From NCBI RefSeq assembly GCF_963675165.1, contig NC_087377.1, forward strand, positions 16,114,518 through 16,178,517: a DNA stretch of 64,000 nt, given 5' to 3'. Below are positions 4,426 to 24,391 of the stretch, in pieces. Within the stretch, counting starts at the first letter, position 1, and each line of letters starts with the position of its first letter. This stretch comes from Halichondria panicea (lineage: Eukaryota > Porifera > Demospongiae > Suberitida > Halichondriidae). Below the pieces are notes generated by a model. That model made no database searches, was not told the DNA's origin, and worked only from the letters and a program-made list of their open reading frames with translations. Both the position numbers and the translations under genes were made by a program.

Positions 4426-7278
4426 CTAATTAGCACTTATAGAGAAGAAATCAACAGTTTGAATATAAGTAAACCATTTTGCCTGTCCTCCGGCTACAAT
4501 GACCTCTCTAGGAAGTACTGAGCATGTGCAGCAGTCTCGCGCAGTAGGCAGGTCTCCCACTTTCACCCACCTCCTGGTGTCAGGCTGGTAGAGGTGGATC
4601 GATGAACTTGTGTTGACTCTGTCGTCTTGTCCACCAACGGCTAATAGTGACCTCCCAATACTGAGAGGAGCTGACCACACTAGTGGTACTTCCTGTAAGG
4701 TCTGCCAGAGAGTGGGTGTGTCCAGGTTGGAAAGGGCTTTTGCAATGAGTTCATTGAGGTCGACGTGGTACACTGTCTTGGTTGCACACCCAGTGTGATC
4801 GAACCCTCCCATTAGGTAGAGGATGTTTCCCATGAGAGTCGATTTCAGTATTGATCGTGGGTTAGGTAGTGACTGAGCAATGTACCATCTTCTTGATGCC
4901 ACGTCCAACACCTCCACAGAGGAGATACGTTCTTTATCATTATACCCACCAGCTACAATGATGTGGTTGTTGAAGGAGACAGCTGTTGAGAAATCACGAG
5001 CAATGTTCATTGGTGGGTACGGGTGAGTCCATTCCCCTGACTCAAACACTGCAAGCTGATTGGTGCGTTTGTTATTTCTTGGATAATGTCCTCCAGCCAG
5101 CACTAGTCGATTAGCGAGTGATGTCATAGCGAAGTACCTGGCAGTGTACTCTGGTAATTTGGTCCATTGATCTTGCTCGAGCTTCATCACTGTACACCTG
5201 TCACAAGGATTGTGTGCATCACCTCCACCAACATACACCGTGTCACCGATAACAACACTCTGAACCGAGGTGCCCATCTTGATTGGCATGTCTTTTCCTC
5301 CTCTCCATTTCAGAGTGAGTGGAGGTCTCAACTCTCTGGGAGGGGGACCCTGAATAATGAATGAGTGTAATTAGGATAGTGTCTACTAACAAGCGAGTGT
5401 TACTTGTAGCAATAATTGCATGCACACTAAATCACTTTCTCTAATTAGCTTAAGAGGCCACGCCCACTAGTCTAATAGAATGTACAGTACGATTATAAAA
5501 GATCAAAGCTTTTACTATAGCTCTGCAATAATATAATGGTGCATTTGTCTCACCTGTCTCTGCTGTTGAATGATGGCGTCTCTCCTGACCAGCTCAGCAT
5601 CTTTGTGCTTAATCTGTTCCCTGTGAGCCTGTACAGGGGAACATTGGTGGAAATCAAACACAGACGTGAATAACATTAGAGAAAATTCTACAACAGAACA
5701 AGACAATCTTCACTAAAAGAAGTACATAATTATAGGCACACTCAAACAGATGTGTAGTTACGGCTTAACACATGAGACAGCATCCATGCATGTTAAGGTA
5801 CAATACTATTGTTGCTGTGGGAATCTCATTATCACACTACATGTACGCACCTTCTTGACTGATTCAGTGTCCTTTGACTCGTTCTTTGTTGCCTCCACTG
5901 GGTCCGAGCTTGTTGTCAGGTAAGTATCTAAAATCGATACCAACATTAAATAGACGGATATGATTTTTTCGTTAGGGTTACAGTTACTGAAACGTAAAAC
6001 ACATAATAATATACTTATCATTGACTCACAGATGTCCCTGGCAGATGGTCTCCTCCTCATGTCTTCTTGCAAACAACTGTCGATAAGCTTCCTCAACCTG
6101 TGTGTGTGAGGGATCTGAGCAACATGGAATGATCGATCTTCCACAGATTTGATCGTCTTCAGCTTGCAAACAATCTGCATCATAATCGCCCCAAGAGAGA
6201 ACACATCCAGGCTATTATCGTAATTATCCTTGTCCAATCGAATAGCCTCGAGAGGTAGATACCCCATACGGTGACCAATGGCTGTGAGGGTGTGGCTAAG
6301 CTTGGAGGGATCGTATAGCCGTGACATGCCAAAGTCGGATATCTTTGCGACAGGCACTGGTCGTGTAAGCTTCAGCAAGATGTTATCGCCACAGAGGTCA
6401 CGATGGATAATCTGCTTGCTGTGAATGTAGGCCAGACCACAAGCCATGTCTTTGGAGAGGCTAATTTCACATTCGCTAGTGAGGGACTCTTCATTAAGGC
6501 CGGAGAAATAGGATCTCAGATTGCAATCCATCAGCTCAACAACGAGGATTGTACTCCCTGATTTGGGGTGCTTGGCAGTCGACAAAAACTGAACAACGTT
6601 TGGGTGCTGGAACGACTTGAGAAAATCACTCTCACGATCAATTGCATTGCTAGCTTCTTCGTTTTTGCCGATTGGAATACTTGCCTGCATCTCCATAGCG
6701 TCGTGAAGCAGCACTTTGACTGCACATATCTCGTCCCTGTAGCTGCCTTTGAAGACTGCTCCAAATGCACCTTTACCTAGAGGTTCGTCTAAGAAAACAG
6801 TCAAATTATCGTTGATCTTCTGGCGGTTTTGGTCAACTGCAGAACATTGTGTGTGTGTATGTGTGTGTGTGTGTGTGGGGGGGGGTGAATATTATAGCAG
6901 CTAACGAACTAAGCATTATGACTGTATGATTCCTGTGCTGAACTAGTGCTTACCCTCTGACTTCACATCAGTAGGATTGTTTGGACCAGTAGACTGTAGA
7001 TGATCTTTCTCAATGGTCTGGGCTATGTGAACTTCACTCACGATGGGACTTGACAAAGCCTCCACCATCTCTTTCCAGCTCTTCCCTCCTTCATTAAGCC
7101 ATTTAATCAAACCCTCACGATAGCAGTCATCAGGATTGTTGCTCCATTCTATCCCGATGCTGTGGATTGTATCCGAGGGTACGTCAAGAATAAGCAAGAT
7201 GTTTCGCCACTTGATTCGAGCATCAAACGTGACGAGATACAATCTCTTTAGATCTGCTATTGTGAGATAGTCAGACAT
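4426..7278 (-). CDS. K1: Death domain-TKL kinase-coiled coil-Kelch protein
   Basis: Five exons in frame: 7278-6954, 6836-6030, 5927-5851, 5628-5554 and 5349-4426, giving 735 aa. Exon 1 encodes a Death-type helical domain (DCYREGLIKWLNEGG, SWKEMVEAL). Exon 2 is a protein kinase with GKGAFGAVFKG (glycine loop), AVKVLL (lysine), HRDLCGDN (catalytic loop) and DFG. The usual APE is replaced by PLEA. A short linker and a coiled-coil exon (KDAELVRRDAIIQQQRQ) lead into about five Kelch repeats (repeated VxxxGG followed by a Trp) forming a beta propeller. Likely an intracellular signalling kinase in which the Death domain recruits partners and the propeller binds substrate; that role is inferred. An upstream in-frame ATG at 7341 exists, but the MSDYL start is shared with the paralog at 13465 and is preferred. 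Confidence 0.85.
6848..6888. repeat. (GT)n tract in K1 intron 1
   Basis: A GT run followed by a G run lies in the first intron. The paralogous intron of K2 has a longer one at about 13014-13070, so the tract has changed length since duplication. Confidence 0.9.
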
Positions 7279-10638: not shown

Positions 10639-13011
10639 CTAATTAGCACTTATAGAGAAGAAATCAACAGTTTGAATATAAGTAGAGAATAGTTTTGTCT
10701 GTCCTCCGGCTACAATGACCTCTCCACTAGGAAGTACTGAGCATGTGCAGTTGAGTCGTGCAGTAGGCAGGTCTCCCACTTTCACCCACCTCCTGGTGTC
10801 AGACTGGTAGAGGTGGATCGATGAACTTGGGTTAAATCCGTTCGCTCCACCAACGGCTAATAGTGACCTCCCAATACTGAGAGGAGTTGACAACACGAGT
10901 GGTACTTCCTGTAAGGTCTGCCAGAGAGTGGGTGTGTCCAGGTTGGAAAGGGCCTTTGCAATGAGTTCATTGAGGTCGACGTGGTGCACTGTCTTGGTTG
11001 CCCCCCCAGTGTGATCCCACCCTCCCATTAGGTAGAGGGTGTTTCCTATGAGAGTTGATTTCAGTTTTGATCGTGGGTTAGGTAGAGACTGAGCAATGTA
11101 CCATCTTCTTGATGCCACGTCCATCACCTCCACAGAGGAGGTACGTCTTTTATCATCACGCCCACCAGCTACAATGATGTGGTTGTTGAAGGAGACAGCT
11201 GTTGAGGACTGACGAGCAATGTTCATTGGTGGATACGGGTGAGTCCATTTCCCTAATTCAAACACTGCAAGCTGATTGGTGCGTTTTTTGTTTCTTGGAT
11301 CCTGTCCTCCCACCAGCACTAGTCGATTAGCGAGTGATGTCATAGCGAAGTACTTGGCAGTGTACTCTGGTAGTTTGGTCCATTGATCTTGCTCGAGCTT
11401 CATCACTGTACCCGAGTCACGATCATTGCCTGCACCACCTCCACCAACATACACCGTGTCACCGATAACAACACTCTGTATCGAGTCACCCATCTTGATT
11501 GGCAAATCTTTTCGTCTTCTCCATTTCAGAGTGAGTGGAGGTCTCAACTCTCTGGGAGGGGGACCCTGAATAATGAATGAGTGCAATTATTAAGAGGCCA
11601 CGCCCACCAGTCTAATAGAATGTACAGTACGATTATAAGAGATCAAAGCTTCTACTATATAGCTCTGCAATAATATAATGGTGCATTTTGTCTCACCTGT
11701 CTTTGCTGTTGAATGATGGCGTCTCTCCTGACCAGCTCAGCATCTTTGTGCTCAATCTGTTTTCTAGGTGCCTGTACAGGGGAACGTTGGTGGAAATCTT
11801 AGAATTAAAACACAGACATGAATATCATTAGTGGAAATTCTACAACAGAACGAGAACAAACAACAATTTCCGCTAAAGAAAGTACATAATTATAGGCACA
11901 CTCAAACGGATGTGTAGTTACGGCTTAACCACTTGAGACAGCATCCATGCATGTTAAGGTACAATACTATTGTTGCTGTGAGAATCTCATTCACACACTA
12001 CATGTACGCACCTTCTTGACTGGTTGAGTGTCCTTTGACTCCCTTTTTGTTGCCTCCACTGAACCAAAACCTCTCGTCAAGTAAGCATCTAGAAAATCGA
12101 TACTAACATTAATACAGACGAATGTGATTTTTTTCGTTAGGGTTATAGTTATAGGGTTAGCGGAATTGTAAAACACATAATTATAATTAACTCACAGATA
12201 TCCCTGGCAGATGGTCTCCTCGTCATGTCTTCTTGCAAACAACTGTCGATAAGCTTCCTCAACCTGTGTGTGTGAGGGATTTGGGCAACATGGAATGATC
12301 GATCCTTGGCTGATTTAATGGTCTCTAGCTTGCAAACAATCTGTGTCACAATCACCCCATAGGAAAACACATCCAGGCTACTATCGTATTTCTCCTCTTC
12401 CAATCGAATAGCCTCAAGAGGTAAATACCCCATCCGGTGACTAATGGCTGTGAGGGTGTGGCTAAGCATGGAGGGATCGTATAGCCGTGACATGCCAAAG
12501 TCGGATATCTTTGCGACAGGCACTGGTCGTGTAAGCTTCAGTAAGACGTTATCACCACAGAGGTCACGATGGATAATCTTCTTGCTGTGAATGTAGGCCA
12601 GACCACAAGCAATGTCTTTCGAGAGGCTAATTTCACATTCGCTAGTGAGGGACTCTTCATCAAGGCCGGAAAAATAAGATCTCAGATTGCAATCCATCAG
12701 CTCAACAACGAGGATTGTACTCCCTGATTTGGGGTGCTTGGCAGTCGACAAATACAGAACAACATTTGGGTGCTGGAACGACTTGAGAAAATCACTCTCA
12801 CGATCAATTGCATCACTAGCTTCTTCGTTTTTGCCGACTGAAATACTTGCCTGCATCTCCATAGCATCGTGAAGCAGCACTTTGACTGCACATATCTCGC
12901 CCCTGTAGCTGCCTTTGAAGACTGCTCCAAATGCACCTTTACCGAGACGCTCGTCTAGGAAAACAGTTAAATCATCGTTGATCTTCTGGCGGTTTTGGTC
13001 AACTGTAGAAC

Positions 13012-13061
<50 letters not shown>

Positions 13062-13465
13062 TGTGGGGGGGGTGAATATTATAGCAGCTAACGAACTAAG
13101 CATTATGACTGTATGATTCCTGTGCTGAACTAGTGCTTACCCTCTGACTTCACATCAGTAGGATTGCTTGCATCAGTAGACTGTAGATGATCTCTTTCGA
13201 TGGTCTGGGCTATGTGAACTTCACTCACGATGGGACTAGACAATGCCTCCACCATCTCTTTCCAGCTCTTCCCTCCTTCATTAAGCCATTTAATCAAACC
13301 CTCACGATAGCAGTCATCAGGATTGTTGCTCCATTCTTTCCCGATGCTGTGGATTGTAGCCTGGGGTACGTCAAGAATAAGCAAGATGTTTCGCCACTTA
13401 ATTCGAGCATCAAACGTGACGAGATACAATCTCTTTAGATCTGCTATTGTGAGATAGTCGGACAT
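10639..13465 (-). CDS. K2: Death domain-TKL kinase-coiled coil-Kelch protein
   Basis: Close paralog of K1 with the same exons: 13465-13141, 13002-12196, 12088-12012, 11771-11697 and 11565-10639. The model closes in frame at 736 aa. The Death domain, kinase motifs (GKGAFGAVFKG, AVKVLL, HRDLCGDN, DFG) and Kelch repeats are all present. The post-DFG segment reads MGYLPLEA as in K1. Differences from K1 include ERLGKG for EPLGKG and a changed linker (YLTRGFGSVEA). Sequence encoding the coiled coil and Kelch is also shared with K3. Because both K1 and K2 are open throughout, both are probably functional or very recently duplicated. Confidence 0.85.
13013..13070. repeat. (GT)n microsatellite in K2 intron 1
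   Basis: Long uninterrupted GT run ending in a G tract, expanded relative to the K1 intron. Confidence 0.95.
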
Positions 13466-19887: not shown

Positions 19888-21415
19888 ATATTATTTTGTC
19901 TGTTTTTGTACTATTTTCTGGCAATGTAATTATGTATGTACCACTTCATGTCATCATAATAACTATAATTATATGCAATAAAATTCTGTTGCAACTCAAC
20001 ATAATAAAAAGAATATCAATATCGCTATAAACTCATCGCACAATTAAAAAGAAACAATTAACAATTAGCACTTATAGAGAAGAAATCAACAGTTTGAATA
20101 AAACTAAATTTTGTCCGTCCTCCGGCTACAATGGCCTCTCCACTAGGAAGTACTGAGCATGTGCAGAAGTATCGTGCAGTAGGCAGGTTTCCCACTTTCA
20201 CCCACCTCCTGGTGTCAGGCTGGTAGAGGTGGATCGATGAACTTGGGTTGTCTCTGTCATCGCACCCACCAACGGCTAATAGTGACCTCCCAATACTGAG
20301 AGGAGCTGATCGCACGAGTGGTACTTCCTGTAAGGTCTGCCAGAGAGTGGGTGTGTTCCGGTTGGAAAGGGCCTTCGCAATGAGTTCATTGAGGTCGACG
20401 TGGTGCACTGTCTTGGTTGCCCCCCCAGTTTGATCCCACCCTCCCATTAGGTAGAGGGTATTTCCTATGAGAGTTGATTTCAGTTCTGATTGTGGGTTAG
20501 GTAGTGACTGAGCAATGTACCATCTTCTTGATGCCACGTCCAACACCTCCACAGTGGAGGTAAGTCGTTTATCATCCTCCCCACCAGCTACAATGATGTG
20601 GTTGTTGAAGTAGACAGCTGTTGAGGAATGGCGAGCAATGTTCATTGGTGGGTACGGGTGAGTCCATTCCCCTGACTCAAACACTGCAAGCTGATTGGTG
20701 TGTTTGGTGTTTCTTGGATCACGTCCTCCCACCAGCACTAGTCGATTAGCGAGTGATGTCATAGCGAAGTACTTGTCAGTATACTCTGGTAGTTTGGTCC
20801 ATTGATCTTGCTCGAGTTTCATCACTGTACACTTGTCACAATCATTGTCTGCAATGCCTCCACCAACATACACCGTGTCACCGATAACAACACTCTGTAC
20901 CAAGTCACCCATCTTGATTGGCATGTTTTTTCTTCTTCTCCATTTCAGAGTGAGTGGAGGTCTCAACTCTCTGGGAGGGGGACCCTGAATAATGAATGAG
21001 TGTAATTAGGATAGTGTCTACTAACAAGCGAGTGTTACTTGTAGCAATAATTGCATGCACACTAAATCACTTTCTCTAATTAGCTTAAGAGGCCACGCCC
21101 ACCAGTCTAATAGAATGTACAGTACGATTATAAGAGATCAAAGCTTCTACTATAGCTCTGCAATAATATAATGGTGCATTTTGTCTCACCTGTCTCTGCT
21201 GTTGAATGATGGCGTCTCTCCTGACCAGCTCAGCATCTTTGTGCTTAATCTGTTCTCTGTGTGCCTGTACAGGGGAACGTTGGTGGAAATCTTTGAATTA
21301 AAACACAGACGTGAATATCATTAGTGAAAATTCTACAACAGAACGAGACAATTTCCGCTAAAGGAAGTACATAATTATAGGCACACTCAAACGGAGGTGT
21401 ATTTAGCGGCTTAAC
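19888..21415. repeat. Segmental duplication module B, partial copy 3
   Basis: Shares the 3' flank, Kelch exon, coiled-coil exon and part of the next intron with K1 and K2. Homology ends near 21415, inside the intron upstream of the shared coiled-coil exon. Beyond that point the gene carries unrelated exons. Confidence 0.85.
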
Positions 21416-23377
21416 ATGATTTATACAATAGCATCAATTGTTGAGGTATTGTTGGAATCTCATCGACACACTTAGCTACATGTACGCAAACAAATATCAT
21501 CATTGTAGTATAATACTAGCGTATAAGAATGTGTGCATTTGGTGACTACTATAATACCTGTAAGAGAGCGGCCCTCTCAACTAGAGCAGCCTCTCTCTGG
21601 GAAATCAGATCAGCGATCCTTGACTCTTGTTCACTGAGTTGTCTGTCCTTGTCAGCAATCATACCATCTTTGGTGGCACAGACACTATTCAATATCTGTA
21701 TATAAAGTAAGGTTATCAACATGCTAGCTCGTTGAGCGAAATAGCTTATAATGAACAAAATAAACTGGTTCTGCTGACCTGTTGCTGTCTAGCAAGCTGA
21801 GTATCTTTATCCGCTACTTCCTCATCTTTTTGAACAAGTAGCTCATCTTTTTGTACCAGAAGTCCATCTTTTTGATCCAGTTGATCGTCTTTTTGTGCCA
21901 GAAGTGCGTCTTTCTCAGTTAATTGCTCATCTTTCCTCTCCAGTATCCTGTCCTTCTGGACCACCTCTCTCTGAGAACAGAGTACAGCATGCAGTGTCAG
22001 ACCCTTGTACCCACTAGCTCACTGGACTGGACTCACCTGTAGAGCCTCTATCCTCTTCTCCTTTGCCCTGAGGGTCCTGGCAGTCTTCACTCGTGCAATG
22101 TCCAGCAGGAGCAGTCCTCCGTCCATCTCCCTCCCCACCTCCTCCAGAGACGAAAGGAGCTCAGCGGTGGTTGGTCTTCTCTCTGGGGTGTTGGCCAGAC
22201 ACTCCCTCACCAGACCAAACAGAGGGTGCTCACGTCCACCCGCCAGACTCCTCTCAAGGAGAGCCGTGTAGGGACCTCGACGCTCAAACTCTGAGCGAGC
22301 CAGGAGGTGGTCTGGGTTGTTAGGGTCGCTGTACGTGGGGGCAAGGAGATCTCCTGGAAACACCTAGTCCAATGACACGAGTGGAAGAACATGTGAATAC
22401 TGACTGTCATGATTGTTTTTATGTATATGTCTGTATGTATGGAGAAAACGAGTACAAGTATATTCACAATCATACATACAAAATGCATTTGCTGAAGGTC
22501 AACAATATTAAAGGGGGATCTCCCCAACACATACAACCACAATACTTATAAGGTAATTCACTGCATGAATGGTCACCAGGAATCTAACCTATGAATATCA
22601 TTAACTACACATACTTGTGTGAGAGCAAACAATTGCAGCACTCCGAAAGAGAAGACGTCCAGACTGGGTCCGTACACACTGTGACCTCTGTCAGAGAGGG
22701 CCTCGGGCGGCATGTACACCAGTGTCCCAGGAAACCTCGTCAGAGTCCTGGCCAGTCGACCAGGCTCCAGATTCACGATACGAGAGTTACCAAAGTCTGT
22801 GATCTTGGCTCTCAGAGATGACGTCAGCAGGACGTTCCTGGCAGTGAGATCACGATGGACCACGGACTCACGATGCAGGTGGAGCAGCCCTCGAGCCACA
22901 CAGACCAGAATGTACTGGGTAACAGAGAGGGGGATGTTGGGGGTGGACTCTAGGAGATCGTCCAGACTTGAGTCCAGCCTCTCCATGACCAGGAGGGGCA
23001 GTCGAGAGCCAGTCACGAAACACAGCCCAATGAACTGGGTGATGTTGGGGTGACGGATGCGAGCCATGAGTCGACACTCTCGGCGGTAGTTCCCAGCTAG
23101 GTTGGCCACTCCACCACGCTCGTCCGTCTCCAGGAGAACCTCGTGGATCTTCTTGGCTGCATACACCTCACCATTGATCATCACCTGTGCATGGAGGCAG
23201 TCACACTTGAATAGCTAGCAGATACACTAGAGACAGTGCACAGAAACAAAGCATGCAGTGACTGACCTCTTGAACAGAGCCATAGGAGCCAGTTCCTAGA
23301 ACTCTCTCCTCTCCAAAGTGCTCCACATTCTCCAGCACAAACTCCCTCAAGTCAGCATCATCTCGCAAAGAAAACAT
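20058..23377 (-). CDS. K3: kinase-heptad coiled coil-Kelch protein
   Basis: Seven exons: 23377-23267, 23184-22615, 22363-22037, 21970-21779, 21695-21558, 21264-21190 and 20984-20058. Every exon is a multiple of three and all introns are phase 0; total 779 aa. Exons 1-3 encode a protein kinase: GTGSYGSVQE, YAAKKI (lysine), HRDLTARN (catalytic loop), DFG and YMPPEAL. The catalytic loop looks tyrosine-kinase-like, the PPE segment TKL-like. Exon 4 carries about eight consecutive KDxxLxx heptads, a long coiled coil likely to oligomerise the protein. Exons 6-7 are the shared coiled-coil and Kelch modules (Kelch about residues 472-779). No Death domain is present. Cytoplasmic signalling role inferred. 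Confidence 0.85.
21779..21970 (-). repeat. Coding heptad repeat in K3
   Basis: A 21-base unit encoding KDxxLxQ is repeated about eight times in this exon (KDRILER, KDEQLTE, KDALLAQ, KDDQLDQ, KDGLLVQ, KDELLVQ, KDEEVAD, KDTQLAR). The strict seven-residue spacing predicts a continuous coiled coil. The shared exon at 21190-21264 continues the pattern (KDAELVR, RDAIIQQ). Confidence 0.9.

Positions 23378-23839: not shown

Positions 23840-23843
<4 letters not shown>

Positions 23844-23905
<62 letters not shown>
23844..23905. repeat. (GT)n microsatellite
   Basis: About 30 uninterrupted GT dinucleotides. Confidence 0.98.
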
Positions 23906-23908
<3 letters not shown>

Positions 23909-24225
23909 AGGATAGTATATTATACAGAAGTATATACTATAGGGTGTGTGTATGAGATATACAGAAGTATAGGGACCAGGCTTTCCGACACAACTGACTC
24001 TGCCTAAAATTAGAAACAGCTCAAAGTTCTAATGCATTTTACATAGTCTATCACAGTGTCACAGAAACAAAAGAACAAAAGAGCAGACAACACAAAACCA
24101 TACAGGTATAGAAAAAGCAAGCAGATGTTTGAGAGTCGAGAATGATGTGTGTGTGTGTGTGGTTGTAATACACATGTACATATACATGTCACGTCGTGTA
24201 CATGCATGCACACTTTAGCTGATAA

Positions 24226-24254
24226 GTACACGCTAGGCACAAGCACACATGGAC

Positions 24255-24298
<44 letters not shown>

Positions 24299-24323
24299 AC
24301 GCTAGGCACAAGCACACATGGAC

Positions 24324-24363
<40 letters not shown>

Positions 24364-24391
24364 ACGCTAGGCACAAGCACACATGGACTTA
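24226..24391. repeat. Composite minisatellite with (GT)n cores
   Basis: Three copies of a 30-base unit (containing acgctaggcacaagcacac and atggactt) at about 24226, 24296 and 24361 alternate with GT runs. Higher-order repetition of a unique block plus a microsatellite suggests unequal exchange or slippage across the whole composite. Confidence 0.9.

Follow-up and report, generated by a model that had tools for sequence, protein, structure and literature searches.

How does a kinase gene come to end in the same two exons as its neighbors when the kinase itself is of another type? The question is raised by a 64,000-nucleotide stretch of the genome (131 Mb) of the sponge Halichondria panicea (C1:16114518-16178517, where C1 is contig NC_087377.1; hereafter the window). 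Three of its genes, K1, K2, and K3, carry the same coiled-coil and Kelch exons at their 3' ends, and K3, which encodes a different kinase, had originally been predicted to be a direct snapshot of exon shuffling that created a new signaling protein. The evidence assembled here points to another answer: K3 probably belongs to a clustered, recombining germline repertoire in which Kelch proteins for recognition carry signaling modules that can be exchanged.

Gene structure of K3 and its neighbors

The front ends of these genes are labeled A (K3-type kinase), B (K1/K2-type kinase), and C (a protein of 383 aa, described below). Re-annotation of K3 (minus strand, 23377-20058) yielded seven exons with an open coding sequence of 779 aa, and every exon length is divisible by three (Table 1). 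All six introns have GT-AG borders; they are in phase 0, as the original prediction had stated. The product comprises the kinase, two A-specific coiled-coil exons, a shared coiled-coil exon of 25 aa, and a Kelch propeller, in this order. Pfam recognizes both the joined A kinase (Pkinase, 2.2e-38) and the Kelch exon (Kelch_1, 3.4e-28), and the predicted model of the latter (predicted local distance difference test, pLDDT, 79.8; predicted template modeling score, pTM, 0.83) has human Kelch domains among its Foldseek matches.

In K1 and K2, a helical N-terminal exon, the B kinase, and a linker exon precede the shared coiled-coil and Kelch exons. The B kinase is 28% identical to that of K3, and the claim that a different kinase with a long coiled coil lies beyond the breakpoint is borne out; the translations of both kinases contain the motifs generally known as the catalytic lysine, HRD, and DFG. 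The top PDB matches of the A kinase are mixed (EGFR, a Src-Abl ancestor, TYK2, BRAF, IRAK4, TNNI3K, and plant kinases). The N-terminal exon of B, modeled from four codons before the start codon, is predicted to form six helices, albeit with a pLDDT of 43.4; it has no Pfam match above cut-off (one lies far below) and no PDB match at E values up to 10.

The last two exons have the same acceptor sites in K1, K2, and K3, and the 75-nt coiled-coil exon has the same donor site as well. The claim that the shared exons are phase 0 on both sides also holds. According to a reading of the sequence, the linker–coiled-coil intron of the B genes is phase 0 and the kinase–linker intron is phase 1.

The boundary between A- and B-type genes

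An alignment of 8 A and 12 B genes was used to place the breakpoint. These represent 20 of the 28 Kelch genes sampled in the C1 cluster; the other eight are one truncated gene, five genes with odd introns (15481204, 15618532, 15626722, 15573468, and 15567462), one of type C, and one lacking an assigned front end. Fixed A/B differences end at window position 21417, two nucleotides from the predicted stop of homology at 21415; the stretch from 21416 to 20985 is free of them (each column was required to contain at least six A and eight B letters). In bins that reach down to 21395, the fixation index (Fst) between A and B is 0.70-0.99, whereas the bins beyond have values of -0.05 to 0.20 (8 A and 14 genes labeled B). 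Two genes, 15509529 (type C) and 15650120, were labeled B in these bins, as well as in the 36-exon tree and the analysis of site correlations below; the labels were corrected in the Kelch Fst and the fixed differences.

Although the change at 21417 is abrupt, homology does not stop there altogether. A diverged island of A/B homology, which starts near the B donor site, persists upstream at about 21492-21444 (10-32% divergence in 25-column bins), and the block between island and boundary (21443-21419), with 52% divergence, shows no such homology. Position 21417 therefore marks the end of A/B likeness, not clearly the original joining point. From the sequence, it looks as if the older joint lies farther upstream and 21417 is the edge of a later exchange between established families. 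The flanks, which had also been predicted to be common to all three genes, show no clear separation of A and B on the 3' side, where the alignment is gappy.

The junction recurs with distinct sequences in the eight aligned A genes of C1, and its parts are found at many loci; the DNA at 21430-22030 alone is matched at 40 or more, mostly adjoining A kinases. Chance and an assembly misjoin at 21415, the latter having been named as a potential refutation, therefore fail to account for it. A phase-0 intronic join to a different kinase is real, but the view of the event as fresh or unique is not supported.

Family size and genomic arrangement

Nor is there support for K3 as a newly created protein. 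A search with its kinase core returned at least 48 matches with 84-100% identity among the 150 of 822 candidates that were scored (K3 included; two contain stops), and the next scored match has 51%. A-type genes with the Kelch tail are numerous on C1 and occur also on C6 and C28. All four other intact C1 copies covered match exon 1 of K3 at 100% identity, compared with 92% for the single copy on C6 and 72% on C11; in exon 3, identity to the ten other intact copies covered on C1 is 93-99%. The Kelch exon has at least 128 matches with 78-100% identity (128 scored of 458 candidates), of which 125 are free of stops, and at least 81 matches of the B kinase, fragments included, were assigned to the C1 cluster. 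All copy numbers are lower bounds.

The C1 cluster spans about 1.9 Mb (15.48-17.39 Mb) and contains at least 99 Kelch exons. Among those listed, the minus strand carries all 53 exons to the left of 16.2 Mb and the plus strand all 46 to the right of 16.5 Mb, which makes the cluster a large inverted array. Some copies on opposite arms have equal scores (e.g., 15825371, 16893884, and 17364546), which points to haplotypes or to a recent segmental duplication.

The nearest front end within 5.5 kb is B in 57, A in 28, and neither in 14 of the 99 listed exons. Reading the DNA behind one of the latter revealed front end C as an open frame of 383 aa. At least 12 copies of C (87-100% identical) are present in the cluster, and 12 of the 14 Kelch exons could be paired with them by hand. 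Two remain: 17274077 and 15650120, the latter with no recognizable front end in the DNA behind it and a frame farther up that has no Pfam match. Front end C itself has no Pfam match at E values up to 1, its PDB matches are at chance level (E of 0.49 or more), and its NCBIfam matches are below cut-off (E of 0.045 or more). Since C is followed by the linker exon of B, its junction is located either in this exon or immediately ahead of it, and hence upstream of the boundary between A and B. Many other loci of the genome contain the second domain of C (about residues 130-373).

Association of the Kelch tail with front ends

On C1, the Kelch exon shows no association with front end A or B. Fst between the Kelch exons of A (9) and B (16) is -0.0016, a value reached by 2630 of 5000 label shuffles; the nearest neighbor belongs to the same class in 11 of 25 cases (expected, 13.0); and two or more nucleotides are common to A and B at 129 of 370 variable sites. 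The truncated exon 16081367 was excluded from all Kelch statistics. Nine apparent fixed differences between A and B were discarded because the columns concerned were gapped and contained only one to three sequences apiece. With an Fst of about zero and no fixed differences downstream of the boundary, neither A nor B has a tail of its own on C1.

The separate Kelch phylogeny that had been called for, a tree of 36 exons, provides K3 with no supported sister. The A and B labels require 10 changes on this tree, a number matched or undercut by 110 of 500 shuffles for B and 148 of 500 for A. Monophyly of the tails by front end was rejected as a candidate explanation because neither the tree nor Fst supports it, although an approximately unbiased (AU) test falls short of excluding it (see below). 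The squared correlation between variable Kelch sites (r2) is 0.113 for sites less than 10 nt apart and declines to 0.041-0.046 for those more than 200 nt apart; none of 2000 permutations reached the mean r2 within 60 nt. Together, these patterns suggest that A and B may still be exchanging their tails, in which case a specificity that evolved on one front end could be moved to the other.

The direction of the original transfer is indicated by homologs on other contigs. For a homolog of A on C11 (kinase core 84% identical), the best E value of any Kelch match in the 10 kb read is no lower than 3.5, and a second kinase starts about 2 kb downstream. By contrast, a B-type kinase on C12 (59% identical) has a Kelch exon (48% identical) about 0.8 kb downstream. 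The presence of Kelch beside the B homolog and its absence beside the A homolog make it likelier that the tail was originally B's. On this thin evidence, it was probably passed from B to A via a phase-0 intron.

Diversifying selection on the Kelch pocket

The ratio of nonsynonymous to synonymous substitution rates (dN/dS; Nei-Gojobori) of the C1 Kelch exons is 1.14 (27 sequences: 9 A, 16 B, 1 C, and 1 lacking an assigned front end). Other parts of the C1 genes have values of 0.13 (core of the A kinase, n = 4), 0.39 (end of the A kinase, n = 10), 0.30 (B kinase, n = 15), 0.36 (N-terminal exon of B, n = 15), 0.25 (shared coiled coil, n = 24), and 1.86 (second coiled coil of A, n = 10, with 49 codons only).

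Variability across the six blades of the Kelch propeller peaks at the residue after the double glycine and at one or two residues past the arginine position; further variable residues are located in the loops following the glycines and near the C terminus. In the predicted model, these residues flank both ends of one hairpin per blade and, judging from the topology, should hence lie on the same face. The residue after the double glycine and the first and second residues after the arginine position were treated as pocket classes (18 codons). Of the 21 Keap1 pocket residues listed in PMC10669650, 16 fall into the same three classes when the register is set by hand.

The ratio of nonsynonymous to synonymous differences per site (pN/pS) is 3.88 (2.40-7.29) for the 18 codons of the pocket rim, 1.98 for 54 loop codons, and 0.48 (0.37-0.65) for 228 core codons, and 10 of the 18 most variable Kelch sites belong to the pocket set. 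When the set is slid along the sequence, pN is 0.430 at register 0, drops to 0.159 and 0.191 when it is moved by one position in either direction, and ranges from 0.017 to 0.120 when it is moved by two to twelve. Codon models yield an omega of 11.7 for the pocket, 3.1 for the loops, and 0.61 for the core; the log likelihood for the pocket is -1100.07 with omega free versus -1151.10 with omega fixed at 1. Because the pocket class was fixed after the variable sites had been seen, the analysis was repeated with nine held-out sequences from C6, C28, and the 11-Mb locus of C1, for which pN/pS is 2.04 (1.29-5.09) in the pocket, 1.26 in the loops, and 0.40 (0.30-0.54) in the core. The Kelch pocket is under diversifying selection, whereas the core of the propeller and the kinases are conserved. 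As to the kind of function, the family has two features of a diversifying recognition repertoire: many clustered copies and positive selection on the predicted binding surface.

Evidence against the proposed recombining repertoire

Several observations weigh against this interpretation. Resolution of the Kelch tree is poor, with 23 of its 33 inner branches open; its supported branches force only two label changes, and the AU test of a single clade for the ten A-type exons of C1 gave a p value of 0.06, short of rejection. The share of site pairs with all four gametes is nearly flat with distance (0.24 to 0.27-0.32; overall correlation -0.03), and a lower r2 would also result if selected sites had mutated repeatedly. 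The exchange statistics cover A and B, although a single gene of type C was included under B until the labels were corrected, and 37 of at least 128 Kelch exons were sampled, one of them truncated. The three A genes analyzed on C6 form a Kelch clade of their own and have a diverged coiled-coil exon and a longer last intron, which suggests local homogenization by chromosome; exchange is therefore not universal. The polarity from B to A is based on a single A and a single B homolog, and another B-type kinase on C12 is without Kelch within 2.9 kb. The pocket class was defined post hoc, a problem that the held-out test and the Keap1 list lessen but do not remove; three of the nine held-out sequences are near-copies, and codon models presume a single tree, an assumption that recombination violates. 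Finally, the DEATH-like fold of the N-terminal exon of B is confirmed neither by Pfam and PDB nor by the model.

Alternative explanations

A recent, single shuffling event that joined the K1/K2 tail to a new kinase at 21415 would explain the sharp intronic boundary in phase 0, the near-identical shared exons, and the A homolog on C11 without Kelch in the stretch read. It is nevertheless very improbable in view of the many tailed A-type genes on C1 and those on C6 and C28, a K3 Kelch exon without a supported sister, and the residual homology upstream of 21417. The probability that the chimera was made by the assembly, from collapsed or misjoined tandem repeats or unpurged haplotypes, is negligible: the equal scores of some copies on opposite arms speak for it, but the junction of the A tail has distinct sequences in eight aligned C1 genes, A kinases with Kelch tails occur on three contigs, and the splice sites of K3 are clean throughout.

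The selective pattern bears on the remaining explanations. If gene conversion merely spread a tail under relaxed constraint, with a Kelch domain that matters little and has no role in recognition, this would account for a whole-Kelch dN/dS near 1 and for the lack of separation between A and B tails; the conserved core, a pocket above neutrality in both the main and the held-out set, the open frames of almost all listed Kelch exons (125 of 128), and a variability peak confined to register 0 render this combination of concerted evolution and relaxed constraint unlikely. It is also conceivable, if rather doubtful, that the repertoire is real but its partners are endogenous, and that the pockets sort host substrates or build self-sorting signaling complexes. 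Known Kelch domains do bind endogenous peptides, and complexes of KLHL12, KLHL3, KLHL20, and Keap1 are among the Foldseek matches; strong diversification of paralogs with conserved front ends is, however, generally commoner in systems of conflict and recognition. Tentatively, and with less than even confidence, the family may represent undescribed intracellular immune or allorecognition receptors, in which a hypervariable plug-in Kelch pocket is swapped among at least three front ends by continuing recombination within the inverted array of about 1.9 Mb.

Proposed mechanism

In the recombining repertoire to which K3 probably belongs, every gene ends in a common module of a short coiled coil and a six-bladed Kelch propeller whose rim varies by copy, joined to one of at least three front ends: A (kinase and long coiled coil), B (kinase and DEATH-like exon), or C. 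The tail was probably a module of B at first, which A gained via a phase-0 intron; in C, the junction with the tail is a different one. On C1, A and B have probably kept swapping the tail since then by non-allelic recombination or gene conversion. By analogy with the complexes of Keap1, KLHL12, and KLHL20, the variable pocket might bind a peptide or protein ligand, while the coiled coils would cluster the proteins and the signal would be relayed by the front end, be it kinase or adaptor. The likeliest use of such a system would be to discriminate non-self or altered self inside the cells, a location that is assumed.

Comparison with known systems

NLRs and other germline immune repertoires consist of clustered copies with a diversifying recognition domain and varied front ends. 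The genes described here have the same features but differ from NLRs in that no NACHT, NB-ARC, or leucine-rich repeat is among the Pfam matches of A, B, and C. They resemble Keap1 and other KLHL proteins in their six-bladed Kelch domain, whose varying positions match the residue classes that line the Nrf2 pocket of Keap1. KLHL proteins, however, are BTB-Kelch adaptors of ubiquitin ligases, whereas the Kelch domain is here fused to kinases or to the 383-aa protein, and Pfam detected no BTB in A, B, and the Kelch exon (E up to 0.001) or in front end C (E up to 1). KLHL genes are not known to form hypervariable arrays. The B kinase, preceded by an exon predicted to be helical, has a layout reminiscent of IRAK4 and other TKL kinases, and IRAK4, BRAF, and TNNI3K are also among the best PDB matches of the A kinase; differences from that group are the Kelch tail, the tandem amplification, and a DEATH fold that is unconfirmed here.

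Large families with positively selected binding domains are already known. The expanded MATH and F-box families of C. elegans are reported to have substrate-binding domains under strong positive selection and to be infection-responsive (PMC5392922); they are adaptors of ubiquitin ligases, whereas here the part that varies is a Kelch domain, with kinases or C as front ends. Kinase and Kelch motif also occur in one protein among Eph-like kinases: a figure legend on Eph-related proteins lists Kelch among their N-terminal domains and mentions neither an array nor pocket diversification (PMC6993872), whereas Kelch is C-terminal here. In two sponges, single transcripts annotated as "Kelch motif containing" drop after exposure to microbial molecules (PMC6208332), which is a weak lead for the present family. 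In a literature search with partial coverage, no array was recognized in which Kelch proteins combine a diversifying pocket with front ends that can be exchanged.

If the proposed repertoire is real, recognition would be split from output in an animal germline, one propeller repertoire, its pocket residues subject to very strong diversifying selection, would serve several signaling modules by recombination, and specificity and output could diversify independently. The genes would then be concrete candidates for non-self recognition in animals without antibodies, and they would provide a case of module exchange with a boundary known to the base and with nameable families of likely donors and recipients.

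Coordinates and further observations

Table 1. Features of K3, K2, and K1 (window positions) and of selected genes elsewhere (contig positions).
Feature	Position	Strand	Basis or remark
K3 exon 1 (start codon, glycine-loop region, A kinase)	23267..23377	-	Open frame, donor GTCAGT
K3 exon 2 (A kinase core)	22615..23184	-	HRDLTARN and DFG read in sequence; Pfam Pkinase
K3 exon 3 (end of kinase C-lobe, start of linker)	22037..22363	-	Re-annotation
K3 exon 4 (A-specific coiled coil)	21779..21970	-	Copy comparison
K3 exon 5 (A-specific coiled coil)	21558..21695	-	Re-annotation
Intron 5, A-type part	21418..21557	-	Many fixed A/B differences
Abrupt change in A/B homology	21416..21417	-	A/B alignment
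K3 exon 6 (shared 25-aa coiled coil)	21190..21264	-	Flanked by phase-0 introns
K3 exon 7 (six-bladed Kelch propeller, hypervariable pocket rim, stop)	20058..20984	-	Pfam, predicted model, Foldseek
K2 N-terminal exon (helical, DEATH-like, predicted)	13139..13465	-	
K2 B-type kinase exon	12197..13003	-	Pfam Pkinase 1e-36 for joined N-terminal part
K2 B-linker exon (also found behind front end C)	12012..12083	-	
K2 shared coiled-coil exon	11697..11771	-	
K2 Kelch exon	10639..11565	-	
K1 N-terminal exon (DEATH-like, predicted)	6952..7278	-	
K1 B-type kinase exon	6031..6837	-	
K1 B-linker exon	5851..5925	-	
K1 shared coiled-coil exon	5554..5628	-	
K1 Kelch exon	4426..5349	-	
Front end C, one copy	C1:15511310-15512458		383-aa open frame
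A-type genes with long insert in last intron	C6:528270, 580223, 762625		

The coiled coil encoded by exon 4 differs in length among A-type copies, from 64 to 113 aligned residues. Upstream of K3, the window contains long GT/CA microsatellites mixed with a repeated short segment (23840-24370). Elsewhere in the genome, 10 matches to exons of Wnt, a gene specific to animals, are in keeping with an animal source, and there are matches to cathepsin. Other large kinase clusters of the genome (C3:0.87-1.71 Mb, C11:4.4-6.5 Mb, and C15:0.68-0.77 Mb) consist of distant relatives of A (about 46-51% identity) or B (43-45%).

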